Shown here: piece by piece, positions 8,863 through 27,485 of the stretch
How the letters are laid out: every line of letters begins with the position of its first letter
How positions within the stretch are numbered: position 1 is the first letter of the stretch
From: Microcoleus sp. AS-A8
GTDB taxonomy: Bacteria > Cyanobacteriota > Cyanobacteriia > Cyanobacteriales > Coleofasciculaceae
Direction: 5' to 3'
NCBI GenBank assembly: GCA_039962225.1
Contig: JAMPKV010000006.1
Location: forward strand, 186,001 to 250,000
Length of the DNA: 64,000 bases
Made by a program: the position numbers and the translations under genes
The notes under the pieces: model-generated
Told to the model about the DNA's origin: nothing
The model's database searches: none
Seen by the model: the letters and a program-made list of their open reading frames with translations, nothing else

Positions 8863-9558
8863 ATGTCCACCAAAGACTTCCTCAATTCAGTGCAAAAAAA
8901 GCAGTTACAGCAAACTCTACGAGAAAGTGAGCAGCCGCATTTAAGAGAAGGATGCTTGATTCTGCTGTTGATAAATTATGGCAAGACGGCTAGAGAAATT
9001 ACTGACTTACTTGGTTGTTCCTTCCGCACCGTAGCTTATTGGCAATTCAACGGTTTTCCAGAGAATTTAGAGTACCTACCAGACCAACGAGAACTGGAGT
9101 ACCTACCAGACCAACGAGAACGAAGGAACTTTCACAAATCGCTAGAAGACCTTATCCCGTTATCAGATATAAAAGTTTTAGAAGTCAGTTTTGGTCTAAT
9201 CCAACCTCAGGCGACAGAGTTTGCCTCGAAGTTCTATAAGAACCTGTTTACTGACTATCCCCAGCTTCAGCCCTTGTTTGCTTACACTCAAATAGAGGTT
9301 CAAGAGAAGAAATTAATCACGGCTTTGGTGTTGGTGATCAATAATCTACGTAAACTGACTTACTTGAAGAACCTACTAAAAGACTTGGGAGCAAGACATG
9401 TAAGGTATGGCACTATTCGGGAACATTATCCGATGGTGGGTACAACGCTCCTTAAAACTCTTGAATCTTTTTTAGGAAAGGAATGGACACCAGAGGTTAA
9501 GCGGGTATGGAAGAATGGATATGAAGCGATCGCTAACCTGATGCTAGAAGGACACTAG
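8863..9558 (+). CDS. HTH (IS630-transposase type)-globin fusion protein
   Basis: 231 residues in two parts. Residues 1-64 match the N-terminal DNA-binding region of IS630-family transposases (MSTKDFL, LREGCLILLLINYGKTAREI, a helix-turn-helix GCSFRTVAYWQFNG). Residues about 98-230 form a globin: FYKNLFTDYPQLQPLF (B-C helices), GARHVRYGTIREHYPMVG with proximal His179 as in Vitreoscilla-type globins, and EWTPEVKRVWKNGYEAI. Between them LEYLPDQRE occurs twice. The frame is continuous with no stop at the seam. A haem-dependent DNA-binding sensor of O2 or NO is a plausible role; alternatively a transposase fragment was simply captured in front of a globin. It stands alone. Confidence 0.8.
   Translation: MSTKDFLNSVQKKQLQQTLRESEQPHLREGCLILLLINYGKTAREITDLLGCSFRTVAYWQFNGFPENLEYLPDQRELEYLPDQRERRNFHKSLEDLIPLSDIKVLEVSFGLIQPQATEFASKFYKNLFTDYPQLQPLFAYTQIEVQEKKLITALVLVINNLRKLTYLKNLLKDLGARHVRYGTIREHYPMVGTTLLKTLESFLGKEWTPEVKRVWKNGYEAIANLMLEGH
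9070..9121 (+). repeat. In-frame tandem duplication in the HTH-globin linker
   Basis: A 25-nt string starting GAGTACCTACCAGACC occurs at 9070-9094 and again at 9097-9121, period 27 bases. It duplicates nine residues (LEYLPDQRE) exactly between the HTH and globin parts without breaking the frame. Confidence 0.9.
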
Positions 9559-9597: not shown

Positions 9598-9918
9598 ATG
9601 CCTCTATTTTTTCACGAACAACTCTACAGAACCCCCACCCTGATGGCATAGCTGAAAGACTTCCCTTTGACGGTGTACGGTGCTGGGGCATTGGGGGCAA
9701 ACATTACCGAACATTTGGCAGGTTCTGGTGCGGGTTTGCTAGTCGTGAACGATCGCGATCGCATCGAAGAACGCAACCTCTCCACTCAGCCTTATTATAA
9801 ATCCGATGTCGGTGCTTACAAAGCCAAAATATTGACAAATACGCTTTATCGTGCGTTAGGAGTTACGGTAGATGGGCGTTCTAAAGAACTCACAACCACC
9901 AATGCTCCTCAACTTTAA
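9598..9918 (+). pseudogene. ThiF/E1-like adenylyltransferase, 5' fragment with nonsense codon
   Basis: From ATG 9598 the frame reads MPLFFHEQLYRTPTLMA, then TAG at 9649-9651, then in the same frame LKDFPLTVYGAGALGANI, LLVVNDRDRIEERNLSTQ and a stop at 9916-9918. The GxGxLG nucleotide-binding loop and D-RD-R-I-E-x-x-N-L-S are hallmarks of ThiF/MoeB/E1 enzymes that adenylate ubiquitin-like or sulfur-carrier proteins. The catalytic cysteine half is absent. The gene is truncated at both levels and dead. A kinase gene on the opposite strand begins its 3' end 6 bases away. Confidence 0.75.
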
Positions 9919-9923
9919 AACCT

Positions 9924-12713
9924 TCATCCTTCAACAGAAGGCGATGTCGTTGTTGGCACGGCTTTTCTATTAGAGGGAGCGAGTGGAATTGTGACAATAA
10001 ACTCTGTCCCTTCTCCAGGCACTGAAAAGCATTCCAGTTGTCCCCCATGTTTTTCGACAATAATTTGATAACTAATTGATAAACCCAAACCCGTGCCCTC
10101 TCCAACAGGTTTAGTGGTGAAGAATGGGTCAAAAATCCGTTTTTTAACGTCTTTAGGAATGCCAGAAGCATTGTCGGCAATCCGAATAACGACATTCTTT
10201 TCCTGCTCACTTTCATCCGAATTGGAGGTTTTGGATGGGGAACAGTCTACAACCTCAGTAGAAATTTTAATGGTTTTGGGTTTGGGCTTGCTAGGTGTCG
10301 TTGCTTGGGTTGTGTGGTGTTCCAAGGTTAGTTCTGGAACTGATTTTTCTAAAGCATCGATCGCATTATTCAAAAGATTCATGAAAACTTGATTGAGCTG
10401 CCCTGGGTAACACTCTATAAAGGGTAGATCACCGTACTCCTTAATTAGCTGAATATTATCCGCGTCAGGCTTTAAGCGGTGTTGCAAAATTAACAGCGTG
10501 TTCTCAATTCCCTCATGAATATCTACGAGTTTACGCTCCGCTTCATCCACGCGGGAGAAATTTTTTAAACTCAAGACAATCTGACGAATGCGATTTGCCC
10601 CAATTTCCATTGATTTCAGCAATTTGGGAAAATCTTTTTTGAGGAACTCGAAATCAATTAGCTCTAACTGCTTTTCAATAGTTCCTACAGGTTGAGGATA
10701 GTGTTCGGTATAGAGTTCCACCAATTCCAGTAAATCCTGAGCATACATTTCTGCATGGGTGATATTGCCAGAAATAAACGTCACTGGGTTATTAATCTCA
10801 TGGGCAACACCCGCCACTAACTGTCCCAATCCCGACATTTTTTCGGTTTGAATCAGTTGGAGTTGGGCTTGTTTGAGGTCGTTGAGCGCTTTTTTGAGTT
10901 CAGTTGCTTGCGTTTTGAGCGCCTGTTTTGAGCGTCGTAATGCGGCTTCGGCTGCTTTTCGCTCTGCTAATTCTTCAGCTAACTGCTTGAAGAGTGCGGC
11001 TTGCTGAATGGCTACGCTCAACTGCACACTGATCTGTCTGAGTAATTCGATTGTCGAGTCCTGCCAATCGCGTGTTCTAGAGCATTGATGAGCAATCAAT
11101 AATCCCCAAAGTTTATCCCCTTGCAGAATAGGAACCACGAGGTTGGCACGTACCTGAAATCGCTCTAATAATTGAATATGACATGGACTCAAGTCTGTAT
11201 TGTAGATATCGTTAATCGCTCGAATGCGTCCTTTTTGGTAGAGATCCGCTTTGCTTTCGTGAAAACAGGTATCCTGAATATTAATGGCTGAAGCTGGCGT
11301 CCATTCCTCACCCACGGACTCTACAACGATCGTGCCACTCCAATCTGGGTTAAAGCGGCAAATCAGGGTGCGATCGCAAGCTAGAAATTGTCGAACTTCT
11401 TCGACTGCGGTTTTCAGAACTTCATCCAGATTCAACGACTGACGGATGCGCTGATTAATTCCGCTGACTATCCGCTCTCTTTGGGCTTGCTGTCGTAGTC
11501 TCCTTTCGGTTTGCTTCTGCTCGGTAATGTCCTGAAACGACCAAATTCTACCGTAGGAGTCGCCTTCGGGCGCTCGAACCGGAGCCGAATAACAATCGAA
11601 AACTCGCCCGTTTCTCAGGTGAATTTCCTCACGGCTGATCAGGGAGGGATTCTCTTCCAAATATTCCATCTGGCTAAAAACCCTTTGTGGCTCTTGGATT
11701 AAGGGCAGTACCCAGTTGAAGATTATTTTATGATCTCCCAATTTTCGCATCCCCTCAGGGATTTGCCACATTTCACAAAACCGCTGATTGTAGCTTAATG
11801 TCGCTCCCGTTTCATCCGTTACCAGAACGCCGTTAGGATCGGATTCTTGTTGCGCCTTCAATAAGGCATTACTGCGTTGCAGAGCCTTTTGAGCCTGCGA
11901 GCTTGCTTGAGCTTGCCGATAGGCATCGCTAATGTCACGAGCAAACGCACAATTATACTCCTGATCGTTAAATTTTAAATAGTTGAATGTGACTTCTACG
12001 GGAAAGACTCGACCATCTTTAGCTCGGTGCTGAGTTTCAATCGAGAAAGAGCCACCTTCCCTTACCTGTTGCCAATGGGATTGCCAGACGGGGAACGAAA
12101 AATTGGGGTCAATGTCCTGGATACTTAACCTCAGCAGTTCTTCACGGGAATATTTCAGCGCTTTGCTGGCTGCTTCGTTAACGTAAAATAATGTCCCATC
12201 CGGTCGAATATAGAAGACAGCATCGGCAGCGCGATCAATCGAAAACTGCATTAATTGTTGGGTTTCTTCGGCCTGTTTGCGCTCCGTGATATCGGTTTGA
12301 ATGCCAATAAAGTGCGTTACCTTTCCTGAGCTGTCTCTTACTGGCGAAATCCTGAGATCATTCCAGAAAACTGTGCCATCTTTGCGATAATTCTTTAATA
12401 CCACTCTGACTTCTTGCCCTGTCCGGATCGATTGGCGGATTTGCTCAACAGCAATTGGATCAGTATCATGGCCTTGTAAAAACCGACAATTCCGTCCAAT
12501 CACTTCTTCTTGGGAATAGCCTGTGATTTCCAGGAAAGCCGGATTGCAATATATTATAGGATTATCGAAACAGCGAGCATCGCTAATCACAATGCCACAA
12601 CTGGTGGCAGCTAGCGCCCGGTCATACAGCCTCTTGTTGCCTATATCCACTTGTTCTGATTGATTGGCGTCTAAGGCCCTATAACTAGCTTTCTTGCCGA
12701 CCATGACTTTCAT
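9924..12713 (-). CDS. LOV-PAS-PAS-CBCR-type GAF sensor histidine kinase
   Basis: 929 residues, soluble. Residues ~30-145 form a LOV domain: GRNCRFLQ with the flavin-binding Cys76, NYRKDGTVFWNDL and FIGIQTDIT. PAS domains follow at ~155-265 and ~285-398. A GAF at ~418-575 carries DTCF (Cys483) and PCHIQLL (Cys511), the DXCF and canonical cysteines of bilin-binding cyanobacteriochromes, 28 residues apart. A coiled coil leads to HisKA (His638 in GVAHEINNP) and HATPase_c (NLLNNAID, DNASGIP, GTGLGLS). No receiver domain is fused and no response regulator is adjacent. Known families predict blue-light flavin photochemistry plus a second bilin colour channel. The ATG at 12713 is followed by another at 12704, so the exact start is uncertain by three codons. 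Confidence 0.88.
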   Translation of the reverse strand: MKVMVGKKASYRALDANQSEQVDIGNKRLYDRALAATSCGIVISDARCFDNPIIYCNPAFLEITGYSQEEVIGRNCRFLQGHDTDPIAVEQIRQSIRTGQEVRVVLKNYRKDGTVFWNDLRISPVRDSSGKVTHFIGIQTDITERKQAEETQQLMQFSIDRAADAVFYIRPDGTLFYVNEAASKALKYSREELLRLSIQDIDPNFSFPVWQSHWQQVREGGSFSIETQHRAKDGRVFPVEVTFNYLKFNDQEYNCAFARDISDAYRQAQASSQAQKALQRSNALLKAQQESDPNGVLVTDETGATLSYNQRFCEMWQIPEGMRKLGDHKIIFNWVLPLIQEPQRVFSQMEYLEENPSLISREEIHLRNGRVFDCYSAPVRAPEGDSYGRIWSFQDITEQKQTERRLRQQAQRERIVSGINQRIRQSLNLDEVLKTAVEEVRQFLACDRTLICRFNPDWSGTIVVESVGEEWTPASAINIQDTCFHESKADLYQKGRIRAINDIYNTDLSPCHIQLLERFQVRANLVVPILQGDKLWGLLIAHQCSRTRDWQDSTIELLRQISVQLSVAIQQAALFKQLAEELAERKAAEAALRRSKQALKTQATELKKALNDLKQAQLQLIQTEKMSGLGQLVAGVAHEINNPVTFISGNITHAEMYAQDLLELVELYTEHYPQPVGTIEKQLELIDFEFLKKDFPKLLKSMEIGANRIRQIVLSLKNFSRVDEAERKLVDIHEGIENTLLILQHRLKPDADNIQLIKEYGDLPFIECYPGQLNQVFMNLLNNAIDALEKSVPELTLEHHTTQATTPSKPKPKTIKISTEVVDCSPSKTSNSDESEQEKNVVIRIADNASGIPKDVKKRIFDPFFTTKPVGEGTGLGLSISYQIIVEKHGGQLECFSVPGEGTEFIVTIPLAPSNRKAVPTTTSPSVEG

Positions 12714-23187: not shown

Positions 23188-23871
23188 ATGCCATTGATTA
23201 TCCTGGTTGCAGATGACAACCTGGGAACCCGTCTTTCCGTCAGTGATTATCTAGAGATGTCTGGCTACTCAGTCATCGTAGCTGAAGATGGCCAGGAAGC
23301 TCTCTCGAAAATCGAAAAGTACCATCCTCACCTACTGGTGACGGATATCAACATGCCCCGCATGGACGGCTATGAGCTGGTGAAAAGGCTTCGTCAGCAA
23401 CCATCGTTTCGCTTGTTGCCGATTGTGCTTTTAACCGAACGCGCGACTACGAAGGAACGCATTGAGGGCTATGAATCAGGGTGTGATGTTTACCTGCCAA
23501 AGCCTTTTGAGATGGATGAATTGGGCGCGGTTATCCGCAATCTTGTGGAGCGCCAACTGGATCGGAAAGTTTCCTTCCCCGACTCGCGGAAAGCCTCAGA
23601 TCGTCCATCTGATTGGGACTCGCCATCGACACAAGAGAAGATGCCAGGGGAGGCGATCGCTCCCAATTCTACCGCCATTGAGTTGACTGAGCGAGAAAAG
23701 GAAGTGTTAGTTTTGCTGGCCATAGGTTTATCCAACGTTGAAATTGGCAAGAAGCTGTACCGCAGTCCTCGGACAGTGGAAAAGCACGTCAGCAGTCTTT
23801 TACGAAAAACAGAAACGAGTAACAGAGCTGAACTGATACGATTTGCCTTAAAAAATCATTTGGTTAATTAA
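23188..23871 (+). CDS. Response regulator, REC-LuxR type
   Basis: 227 residues. The receiver domain (1-~125) has the acidic pair in VADDN, phospho-acceptor Asp53 in VTDINMPRMDG, and the conserved Lys in LPKPFEMDEL. After a variable linker, a GerE/LuxR-type HTH (~165-225) reads LTEREKEVLVLLAIGLSNVEIG and SPRTVEKHVSSLLRKT. It is a DNA-binding transcription regulator driven by phosphorylation. The kinase gene 735 bases downstream on the same strand is a possible partner, but the gap makes this uncertain. Confidence 0.93.
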   Translation: MPLIILVADDNLGTRLSVSDYLEMSGYSVIVAEDGQEALSKIEKYHPHLLVTDINMPRMDGYELVKRLRQQPSFRLLPIVLLTERATTKERIEGYESGCDVYLPKPFEMDELGAVIRNLVERQLDRKVSFPDSRKASDRPSDWDSPSTQEKMPGEAIAPNSTAIELTEREKEVLVLLAIGLSNVEIGKKLYRSPRTVEKHVSSLLRKTETSNRAELIRFALKNHLVN

Positions 23872-24605: not shown

Positions 24606-27485
24606 ATGAATGGACCAAACCTGATGCCCTTGAGTCAAAGACGCATCTGGCGATATGTTGCCGTAGTCGGCGCGCTCGCGGTTGCTTACTATGGTGCGGC
24701 GTACCTCACCGTCTCCTCTCTAGGGCTGGGTTTAGAGGCTTCTCCCTTATGGCCTTCCGCAGGGATTGCCTTAGCCGGTTTACTCTTGGCAGGACAGCGT
24801 GTCTGGCCGGGGGTGGCACTGGGGTCATTCTTCTGGTGCCAGCCACAAGTATCCTTAACCATGGCTTTCGCCTTAGCATTCGGCATCACCTTACAAGCCT
24901 TAGTTGGAGCCGAAGTCTTGCGTTGGCTGAAGTTTCGCCCCTCCCTGAAACGGCGGCAAGATGTCCTACAGCTAGTGGTTTGGGGAGCCTGGGGTTCGAC
25001 CCTAATCAATGCGAGCCTCAGTACGCTGATTGGTTGCTTGGGCGGTACCGTTGGGCTTCAGCAGTGGCAGGAAAACTGGTGGACGTTGTGGGTAGGAGAC
25101 GGCATGGGCATTTTAGTGGTCACTCCCCTGCTGTTGATGGGTCGCCATTGGCTGGGGAACGTTAGATGGACTATCGCCCAAATTTTACAAGGGAAACCTT
25201 TGGGATTGGGCAAGAATTTGTGGAACCACAAAACTTTTACAGTTCTTCCCCATGCCCTAGCTTGGGGCACGCCTTCTGAGGGCAAAAAAAACTCCACTCT
25301 CGCTGAAGCTGTTATTTGCTTTACCCTATTGTTTACTCTTTGCTGGTTGGTGTTCGCGTTAAAATCAGCCGTTGATTTGACTCGATATCCCCTAGAATAT
25401 CTTCCCTTTCCTTTCGTTGTCTGGGCCGCGATTCGCTTCACTCAGCGAGGTGCAGTGATGGCAACCTTAATTGTTTGTGTGATTGCCATTTGGGGAGCCA
25501 TGCAAGGAGTTGGTCCGTTTGTGGCAAAGACGAACATCAAACAAGCGGTTTTATTTTTACAGGGCTTTATAGGCGTCGTCTCGATTACAGCCTTAGTCCT
25601 AGCGGCGGCTGAGTCCGAACGCGCCCGCGCCGTGGATTTACTTAAAGAGAGGGAAGCGAGTCTAGCCAATGCTCAACGCCTTGCACAATTGGGAAACTGG
25701 GATTTTTACCAGACGTGCAACAACTCCTGTTTACCTCAGCAGAAATTGCAGTGGTCGGATGAACTTTATCGCCTTTTTGGTTTTAGTCCCAAAGCCTTCG
25801 AGCCGACTTGGGAAACGTTGTTTCAAGTGGTTCATCCCGCAGACCGCGATCGCGTAGGACAGGCGATTCGAGGTGCTCTGCGAGAAAATAAGCCCTACTG
25901 CCTTGACTATCGAATTGTACGCCCGGATGGTTCAGAACGCATTGTTTGCGAACAATCGGAGATTTACGGGGGCGGTATTAGGGGGACGGTGCAGGATATT
26001 ACTGAGCGCCAACGGGTTGAAGATCAACTCCGCGCCGCCGCCGAGCATGTTAGCGAAGCCGCTGAACGACAGCGCTTGTTAGGAGAGATGGCGCTACGGA
26101 TTCGGCGTTCTCTCCATCTCGATCAAATTTTGAACACAACTGTCGCGGAAGTGCGAGAATTTTTAAATGCTGACCGTGTCTTCATTGGTCAAATTGATGG
26201 GATTTCTCAACAATTGAACGTGCGTCAGTTGTTAGCACCGCGCCGGAGTTCATCCCAGGATGTAGCCCAAGTTGAAAGTTCCGAGGAAAACCTTCCCTTC
26301 GGAAACGCCTTGGGCGAACAACCTTCAAACCTTCAAACCTTCAAACCTTCAACCCTGTTAAAAGGTCTCGTGATTGCTGAATCGGTAGACCCCTGCTACC
26401 CCTCGCTTCGCAGCATGGTGGTTGAGGATGAGGCAACATTACAAGAATGGCGATCGCGGTTTAACCAAGGTCGCGTTATTGCCATTGAGGATACAAAAGC
26501 CATCCCTTGTTCTTGTAATATTGCCGCCTACCACGCCGAGTATAAAGTGGGAGCGATCCTCGCTGTGCCCATTTGGGTGGGAGATAACCTCTATGGGGCG
26601 TTAGTCGTTAACCAATGTAGCCAGCCACGTCATTGGCAATCGTGGGAAATTGAGTGGCTTACTTCCCTCGCCACACAAGTAGCAATTGCCATCCAGCAAG
26701 CAGAACTCTATCGACAGATTACAGACCTCGCGGCTCATTTGGAATCCCAGGTAGAGGAGCGAACCCAAGAACTCACAGCTAAAATGACCGAACTTCAGGA
26801 ACTCAACCAACTCAAAGATGTATTCCTGCAAGCCGTTTCTCACGACCTCCGCACTTCTTTGCTGGGAATGTCAATGGTGTTAAACAATTTGTCTAAATCA
26901 GCAGGAGATGCAGTAACCCTTTCTCGGCCTTTGTTGGAACGAATGATAACAAGCAACGAACGTCAGCTAAATTTAATCAACTCCCTCTTAGAAGATCATT
27001 TCAATGAAGAGCGTCAATTAGAACTGCATCGTCAACCGATACAGCTCACTCAATTGTGCCAGGATTTAATAACCAACTATTCGCCCCTGCTGGCTCAAAA
27101 CCAAGCCACTCTGACTCAAAAATTACCGCCAAATTGCCCCTTGATCAAGGCTGATCCAACTCAGGTACGACGGGTGTTGGAAAACTTGCTCACCAATGCC
27201 TTAAAACACAATCCACCGGGACTGAACCTAAGATTGCAAGTCCGGATCGAAGACAAAAAAATTTGCTGTACTCTGCAAGATAATGGGTTAGGTATGAGCC
27301 AAGAGCAACAGAACAGCCTCTTCAAACTCTACATTCGAGGTCTGCATACAAAGCACTTAACCGGCATTGGTTTGGGTTTGTATCAATGTCGCCAAATTAT
27401 CAACGCTCACGGTGGAGAGATTGGTATTATCAGTAGTCCTAATGTTGGGTCAACCTTCTGGTTTACCCTCCCATTAGCTGAGTAG
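24606..27485 (+). CDS. MASE1-PAS-GAF sensor histidine kinase
   Basis: 959 residues. Residues ~8-335 form a multi-helix membrane sensor of the MASE1 type (YYGAAYLTVSSLGLGLEASPLWPSAGIAL is its usual opening, split here by description only). A PAS/PAC module follows at ~350-462 (GNWDFYQTC, QDITERQ), then a GAF at ~490-700 (LHLDQILNTTVAEVREFL, VGAILAVPIWVGDNLYG). HisKA has His746 in AVSHDLRTS, and HATPase_c has NLLTNALKH, DNGLGM and GIGLGLYQC. The GAF contains an insertion coded by an 8-nt tandem repeat. There is no fused receiver domain. It could sense a membrane or small-molecule cue; the ligand is unknown. Confidence 0.88.
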   Translation: MNGPNLMPLSQRRIWRYVAVVGALAVAYYGAAYLTVSSLGLGLEASPLWPSAGIALAGLLLAGQRVWPGVALGSFFWCQPQVSLTMAFALAFGITLQALVGAEVLRWLKFRPSLKRRQDVLQLVVWGAWGSTLINASLSTLIGCLGGTVGLQQWQENWWTLWVGDGMGILVVTPLLLMGRHWLGNVRWTIAQILQGKPLGLGKNLWNHKTFTVLPHALAWGTPSEGKKNSTLAEAVICFTLLFTLCWLVFALKSAVDLTRYPLEYLPFPFVVWAAIRFTQRGAVMATLIVCVIAIWGAMQGVGPFVAKTNIKQAVLFLQGFIGVVSITALVLAAAESERARAVDLLKEREASLANAQRLAQLGNWDFYQTCNNSCLPQQKLQWSDELYRLFGFSPKAFEPTWETLFQVVHPADRDRVGQAIRGALRENKPYCLDYRIVRPDGSERIVCEQSEIYGGGIRGTVQDITERQRVEDQLRAAAEHVSEAAERQRLLGEMALRIRRSLHLDQILNTTVAEVREFLNADRVFIGQIDGISQQLNVRQLLAPRRSSSQDVAQVESSEENLPFGNALGEQPSNLQTFKPSTLLKGLVIAESVDPCYPSLRSMVVEDEATLQEWRSRFNQGRVIAIEDTKAIPCSCNIAAYHAEYKVGAILAVPIWVGDNLYGALVVNQCSQPRHWQSWEIEWLTSLATQVAIAIQQAELYRQITDLAAHLESQVEERTQELTAKMTELQELNQLKDVFLQAVSHDLRTSLLGMSMVLNNLSKSAGDAVTLSRPLLERMITSNERQLNLINSLLEDHFNEERQLELHRQPIQLTQLCQDLITNYSPLLAQNQATLTQKLPPNCPLIKADPTQVRRVLENLLTNALKHNPPGLNLRLQVRIEDKKICCTLQDNGLGMSQEQQNSLFKLYIRGLHTKHLTGIGLGLYQCRQIINAHGGEIGIISSPNVGSTFWFTLPLAE
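26321..26352 (+). repeat. Four copies of an 8-nt repeat within the kinase coding sequence
   Basis: ACCTTCAA is repeated four times in tandem, at residues ~572-583 within a non-conserved insertion of the GAF domain. The unit is not a multiple of three, so gain or loss of one copy would shift the frame and remove the kinase core. Confidence 0.85.

Follow-up and report, generated by a model that had tools for sequence, protein, structure and literature searches.

A cyanobacterial histidine kinase predicted to carry LOV and DXCF-type cyanobacteriochrome photosensors in series

In the literature surveyed, natural proteins with two photoreceptors of different chemistry are few, neochrome and Ppr being the examples; an excerpt of a 2022 review lists neochromes, Ppr, and cyanobacteriochrome arrays as natural multi-sensor receptors (PMC9614035). 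A gene within a 64,000-nucleotide stretch of the Microcoleus sp. AS-A8 genome (contig JAMPKV010000006.1, positions 186,001 to 250,000; hereafter the window) raises the question of whether a single bacterial histidine kinase can be driven by both a flavin and a bilin. The initial annotation, made from the sequence alone, read this gene as a kinase combining a LOV domain with a GAF domain of the DXCF cyanobacteriochrome type. That architecture was borne out, with the addition of two PAS domains, lying between the LOV and GAF domains, that had gone unmentioned.

The gene occupies positions 9924-12713 of the minus strand, a strand that the initial annotation had left unstated, with an ATG at 12713 and a stop at 9924, and encodes a protein of 929 amino acids. 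A Pfam scan of the protein gave the domain order LOV-PAS-PAS-GAF-HisKA/HATPase, with PAS_9 matched in two stretches (best at residues 39-144), PAS_7 at 294-403, GAF at 428-569, HisKA at 630-723, and HATPase_c at 772-912, and detected no receiver and no membrane-bound sensor family at E values up to 0.01. The protein is a histidine kinase by both Pfam and motif content: the HisKA domain (10545..10826, minus strand, as are all features of the gene given below) carries a phospho-acceptor histidine, His638, in the H-box GVAHEINNP, and the HATPase_c domain (9978..10400) contains the N, G1, F, and G2 motifs. The second and third PAS domains were placed from Pfam matches and a structure model at about residues 155-264 (PAS2, 11922..12251) and 290-397 (PAS3, 11523..11846). 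Within PAS2, residues 252-263 (EYNCAFARDISD, 11925-11960, minus strand) include a cysteine, Cys255, that is invariant across the four relatives compared; the pattern F[NDH][DNG][QKR]EYNC from this domain was one of two chosen in a search for relatives.

The LOV domain spans residues 29-146 (12276..12629), as judged by profile match, site residues, and structure matches. The expected flavin-adduct cysteine, Cys76 (codon 12486..12488), lies in GRNCRFLQ at residues 73-80, exactly where the initial annotation had put it. Comparison with a profile of 141 LOV domains revealed that all seven site residues compared (N75, C76, R77, Q80, N108, N118, and Q139) are kept; in LOV domains these positions, the two Asn and the Gln included, contact the flavin. 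The best match among solved structures is 9vf7, the LOV domain of Meiothermus ruber Mrub_1259 (E 3e-42), and the predicted LOV fold fits 9vf8 at 0.7 Å over 103 columns. Sequence, profile, and predicted-fold tests support the assignment of a LOV domain, putatively flavin-binding. A plain PAS domain in its place was ruled out by the 3e-42 match, the site residues, and the fold match; of the 150 PAS_9 matches reported for this genome, only five places have the NCRFLQ motif. The structures of Mrub_1259 (9vf7) and of Brucella LOV-HK (6pps/6ph4) are the closest solved LOV and LOV-PAS matches, and both proteins, like the window kinase, combine a LOV domain with a C-terminal PAS domain and a kinase; the constructs are listed without a bilin GAF.

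The GAF domain (residues 412-573, 10995..11480) was delimited by Pfam, structure matches, alignment, and a model. Its two cysteines are placed as first described: Cys483 (codon 11265..11267), the putative second cysteine, lies in DTCF (481-484), and Cys511 (codon 11181..11183), at the canonical bilin-attachment position and followed by His512 in SPCH (509-512), comes 28 residues later. When the central 71 residues were aligned with the TePixJ GAF domain (6p58), no gap was required: DPCF lies over DTCF and ECH over PCH, so that Cys511, rather than falling off the chromophore position, is in register with the CH-motif cysteine of TePixJ. This ungapped alignment excludes a chance DXCF motif. Among solved structures the best match is PPHK (6oap, E 3.4e-53), followed by other cyanobacteriochromes. 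A model of the GAF domain built from 39 sequences (mean pLDDT 87.0) matches PPHK at 1.3-1.6 Å, with 49-51% identity in the structure alignments, and, as a whole-domain fit, the blue state of TePixJ (4fof) at 1.4 Å over 146 columns. The Trp of WXDXXL, the motif of extended red/green (XRG) cyanobacteriochrome GAFs (PMC11284453, excerpt), is absent from the window protein, which reads IQDTCF at the corresponding place; membership of the red/green lineage was ruled out on that ground. Taken with the model, these alignments support a GAF domain of the DXCF cyanobacteriochrome type, for which bilin binding and a blue/green cycle are predicted. The bilin reductase family PF05996 has one match in the genome.

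The solved proteins nearest to this GAF domain differ from the window kinase in what surrounds it. TePixJ and other DXCF cyanobacteriochromes (6p58, 4fof, 3vv4) share the GAF fold and the ungapped pair of DXCF and CH cysteines 28 residues apart, but TePixJ, whose record reads "methyl-accepting chemotaxis protein", has a chemotaxis-receptor output and is not known to carry a LOV domain. PPHK, described as a dual sensor histidine kinase (6oap, 6oaq, 6ob8), is closest in both sequence and structure and is likewise a cyanobacteriochrome kinase with two inputs; its GAF, unlike that of the window kinase, is without the second cysteine (DQYF), and the BeF3 state of the entry points to a receiver, not a LOV domain, as the second sensor. 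The PPHK paper reportedly describes the receiver domain in that role.

In the reading that we consider likely, both photosensors of this histidine kinase are functional and act in series; the chromophores, their colours, the sign of the response, and the partner regulator we infer. In the proposed mechanism, the LOV domain would bind flavin and, in blue light, form an adduct with Cys76 that is lost again in darkness. The GAF domain would attach phycocyanobilin at Cys511 and probably isomerise it to phycoviolobilin. It would switch back and forth between a dark state that absorbs blue, with Cys483 bound to C10, and a photoproduct that absorbs green. Isomerisation and a blue/green cycle of this kind are described for the typical DXCF GAF (PMC11284453, excerpt); TePixJ is tabulated at 430/530 nm (PMC4469895, excerpt). 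Both signals would pass to the kinase along one in-phase helical stalk by way of exchangeable PAS spacers. Given that LOV domains absorb near 450 nm (PMC5812497, excerpt) and that the typical DXCF dark state is also blue-absorbing, the same blue light should set both sensors, and only the off-switch should differ: darkness would reset the LOV domain, while green light, or slow dark reversion, would reset the GAF domain. The suggestion that the kinase integrates two light qualities stands as regards the two sensors and is too simple as regards the light, since both dark states should absorb the same blue. Through the LOV domain the kinase would read blue irradiance, and through the GAF domain the blue/green balance, with memory. 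If this is true, one kinase would read both blue irradiance and the blue/green ratio and would remember recent light, information from which a cell in a mat or in water might gauge its depth. The two inputs may add to, gate, or oppose each other.

Relatives of the kinase indicate which parts of this arrangement are held constant. Matches to residues 1-600 at E 1e-120 were found in four of 388 genomes of the class, its own genome counted. The relatives in G171 (64% identity) and G378 (54%) keep both the LOV motif, as GRNCKFLQ, and the GAF motif, as DNCF and DRCF respectively. In G314 (48%) the GAF motif DDCF..CH is kept and the LOV motif reads GRNSDFLK; a relative, L047, has the same motifs. 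A named collection adds Coleofasciculus sp. LEGE 07092 (L107), Cyanobacteria bacterium UBA8803 (L108), and Trichocoleus sp. FACHB-40 (L109), all laid out as LOV, a single PAS, DXCF GAF, and kinase; of all named relatives, a Coleofasciculus strain comes closest in its GAF (73% identity). Across L045, L046, L107, L108, and L109, the LOV, GAF, and kinase regions are 58-78% identical to those of the window protein. PAS2 is missing from L107 and L108, the lone PAS of L109 aligns poorly with either PAS2 or PAS3, and in L046 and L047 a different PAS takes the place of PAS3, with an identity of only 21-22%. On these comparisons, the photosensors and kinase appear as the stable core and the PAS domains as exchangeable spacers, and the LOV input appears open to loss.

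The case of L047, which has lost the LOV cysteine and kept the GAF motifs, indicates that in that protein the LOV input is dispensable, and lends weight to a reading of the window kinase in which the light response comes from the bilin GAF alone and the LOV domain, for all its canonical appearance, has a structural, dimerising, or redox role. The LOV domain of L047 is 44% identical to that of the window kinase and its GAF 64%, and the GAF lies nearer to the kinase than the LOV does. Against this, the LOV site residues are all or nearly all kept in the window protein, L045, L046, L107, and L109 (with R changed to K in two), and among these proteins the LOV domain is as conserved as the GAF, and we regard a silent LOV domain as unlikely. 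A Gln near the end of the LOV domain, a residue that relays the flavin signal, is replaced by His in a paralogue from the same genome (L194) and by Leu in L108; the output of these two LOV domains may differ.

A second alternative grants that both sensors work and supposes that the GAF domain keeps phycocyanobilin or follows another photocycle, such as blue/orange or one with fast dark reversion, in which case green light would not be the reset. DXCF GAFs do vary, NpF4973 being tabulated with PCB at 435/600 nm (PMC4469895, excerpt), and no sequence rule among those tried separates their photocycle types. Since phycoviolobilin is nevertheless called the typical case for DXCF GAFs (PMC11284453, excerpt), we think such a departure improbable.

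For two photosensors in series, the distances between domains are of interest. Between the LOV motif DIT and the GAF motif RIR there are 281 residues in the window protein, 274 in G171, 267 in both G378 and G314, and 155 in each of L107, L108, and L109. Throughout this clade the length leaves a remainder of 1 on division by seven, even across the gain or loss of a whole PAS domain, and one step of seven was traced to the PAS2-PAS3 linker, which has an additional stretch in the window protein compared with G171. Direct LOV-GAF tandems are equally regular, with 153 residues from the LOV cysteine to the DXCF cysteine in all ten. The distance from DIT to the DXCF cysteine is 88 in the tandems and 215 in SR411, P. 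mucicola, and G108, while G192 and G260 share a DIT-to-RIR length of 152 and reach the DXCF cysteine at 213 and 217, a four-residue difference that arises after RIR. Such fixed spacing would fit a continuous coiled-coil stalk, and coiled-coil linkers between sensor modules have been described (PMC6798134, excerpt). The regular spacing is a general habit of PAS/GAF arrays and is not special to the window protein. A model of residues 1-636 was weak (four sequences, pTM 0.34) and poor over the GAF domain.

The pairing of LOV and DXCF domains is not confined to these close relatives. We collected 23 different frames that keep the LOV cysteine and carry a two-cysteine DXCF or DXCL GAF. They come from 21 genome or contig sources and were chosen by hand, each gene being counted once, from the results of queries that favoured LOV or DXCF; two genomes, G000 and G378, contribute two frames each. 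The genome of the window kinase itself holds a second pairing, L194, a protein of 1210 amino acids with several PAS domains followed by a LOV domain, a GAF with DNCF, and a kinase. The LOV domain precedes the GAF in 21 of the 23 frames and follows it in L226 and L227, which come from genomes G205 and G336; L226:3282-5885:- reads CBS-DXCF GAF-PAS-LOV-HisKA_2-HATPase. A simple pattern detected the kinase motif in 20 frames. The other three are L226, which carries HisKA_2 and HATPase_c by Pfam, L227, and L085, a 456-amino-acid frame on a 3,970-base contig with no kinase motif within it.

A second sample was drawn by LOV motif alone. The motif is present in 128 of the 388 genomes, and 150 places among the matches listed yielded 144 frames after removal of six without a G.NCRFLQ frame: L230 (a LOV domain with NCRFFQ), L231 (LOV-like, interrupted by a stop), and four chance-looking matches in short frames. 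The pattern skips NCKFLQ, NCRFMQ, and DCRFLQ forms, which were found by other routes. No GAF accompanies the LOV domain in 97 of these frames; a GAF without the canonical-column cysteine, a class that includes weak profile matches, does so in 33, a two-cysteine DXCF or DXCL GAF in 12, and one with the canonical-column cysteine only in two. LOV domains joined to a bilin-type GAF, as classed by sequence, are a minority (14 of 144), mostly of the two-cysteine kind. In the genome of the window kinase, which served as the sole background and in which a few domains were perhaps counted twice where loci cut them, 15 of 35 canonical-cysteine GAFs, among 53 GAF cores, have two cysteines. Against that background, 12 of 14 gives a binomial probability of 0.0013, an approximate value, since related sequences are not independent of one another; counting 12 of 13 gives 0.0003, and the 12 of 14 version was adopted. 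A separate set of 20 frames among L314-L337 is uniform in its spacing: each has a GAF that lacks the canonical cysteine and begins 89 residues past the LOV motif.

The 33 frames whose GAF is without the canonical cysteine indicate that a LOV-GAF array need not bind bilin, but that only the LOV domain signals in the window kinase, with its GAF empty of bilin in the cell, is very improbable, given its canonical Cys-His and DXCF motifs, the 49-51% identity to the bilin-bearing PPHK GAF, and the persistence of the GAF motif where the LOV is dead (L047). The reading with two working photosensors draws on the complete set of LOV site residues and the LOV fold, the TePixJ register and the GAF model, the missing WXDXXL Trp, and the PF05996 match, together with the conservation of LOV, GAF, and kinase against varying PAS domains, the spacing that is fixed or changes in sevens, and the 23 frames. 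Counted against it were the lost LOV cysteine of L047, the 33 frames just described, the Gln replacements in L108 and L194, and the weak model across the linkers.

How often the pairing arose was addressed with a tree of 56 two-cysteine GAFs, in which the window protein groups with L107 and L108 (100/95) and then with L045 (99/82), all of them LOV-linked. Placing the LOV label on this tree needs nine changes, against a mean of 18.3 when labels are shuffled, and the starred branches force only two; several LOV-GAF joinings are likely. In the GAF alignment A2, the invariance of both cysteines is a product of sequence selection. A broader proposal, which we offer tentatively and hold to be possible while falling short of probable, is that these proteins form an as yet unnamed family of flavin-bilin two-photosensor cyanobacterial kinases in which LOV domains are preferentially wired to DXCF GAFs at a fixed helical register. 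Both sensors would be set by blue light and differently erased, and one kinase would act as a built-in logic gate that senses depth within a mat or water column.

Neochromes, in which a phytochrome is joined to a phototropin, and Ppr resemble the window kinase in having two kinds of photosensor in one polypeptide, but neither pairs a LOV domain with a DXCF GAF inside a bacterial kinase. The features of those proteins, a PAS-GAF-PHY module or PYP, do not recur here: Pfam detected no PHY domain (E up to 0.01), and the GAF is a lone domain of cyanobacteriochrome type. We found no report of a natural LOV-plus-cyanobacteriochrome protein in the open-licence literature, and earlier notice is possible, for example in Mandalari 2013 or in Narikawa 2006, which is said to concern Anabaena LOV domains. 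Ppr combines PYP, a bacteriophytochrome, and a kinase (PMC5812497, excerpt). The engineered YHF kinase, a LOV domain with a heme-PAS, is similar in that serial sensors act on one kinase through coiled coils, and differs in being engineered and in having oxygen as its second signal (PMC6798134, excerpt). A 2014 survey, in the excerpt used, describes LOV kinases with extra sensing domains and notes that LOV proteins and bilin-GAF proteins occur together in bacteria (PMC4844311). Taken singly, the domains of the window kinase are ordinary representatives of known families; what is unusual is the pairing of LOV with DXCF. It recurs, at fixed spacing, across cyanobacterial families and would bring together in one kinase a blue sensor that decays thermally and another that green light can probably erase. 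Single point mutants could test here whether one histidine kinase integrates two light inputs, and such proteins offer natural templates for two-input light switches.

As the initial annotation observed, no response regulator adjoins the gene: the nearest Response_reg among the matches listed is an open reading frame at 23188-23871 (plus strand), 10.5 kb away, which combines it with a LuxR-type GerE domain. The genome has at least 151 Response_reg matches, and no partner regulator emerged from the gene families of the window or, at L338, L339, L340, L107, and L108, from lists of open reading frames with their first residues. The 23188-23871 regulator is followed by a kinase at 24606-27485 (plus strand) that reads MASE1-PAS-GAF-HisKA-HATPase and whose GAF matches the DXCF GAF of the window kinase at 34% over residues 50-166; its frame has an insertion and, by eye, no CH motif.

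Neighbouring genes are partly shared among relatives. The window and L108 have in common a divergent Big_5-type gene and a pentapeptide gene, and the window and L339 a ThiF-family gene, recognised by first residues; these shared neighbours support orthology, not function. In the window, the ThiF match is an 83-amino-acid fragment at 9667-9918 (plus strand) that covers positions 25-104 of the 238-position profile and ends immediately ahead of the kinase stop codon, and at the same place L339 has a frame of 212 amino acids with a similar start. Also adjoining the kinase gene, at 8863-9558 (plus strand), is a gene for a 231-amino-acid protein with a C-terminal globin (E 2e-15) and a weak N-terminal HTH_23 match that falls below the cut-off, possibly a globin-linked DNA-binding protein.
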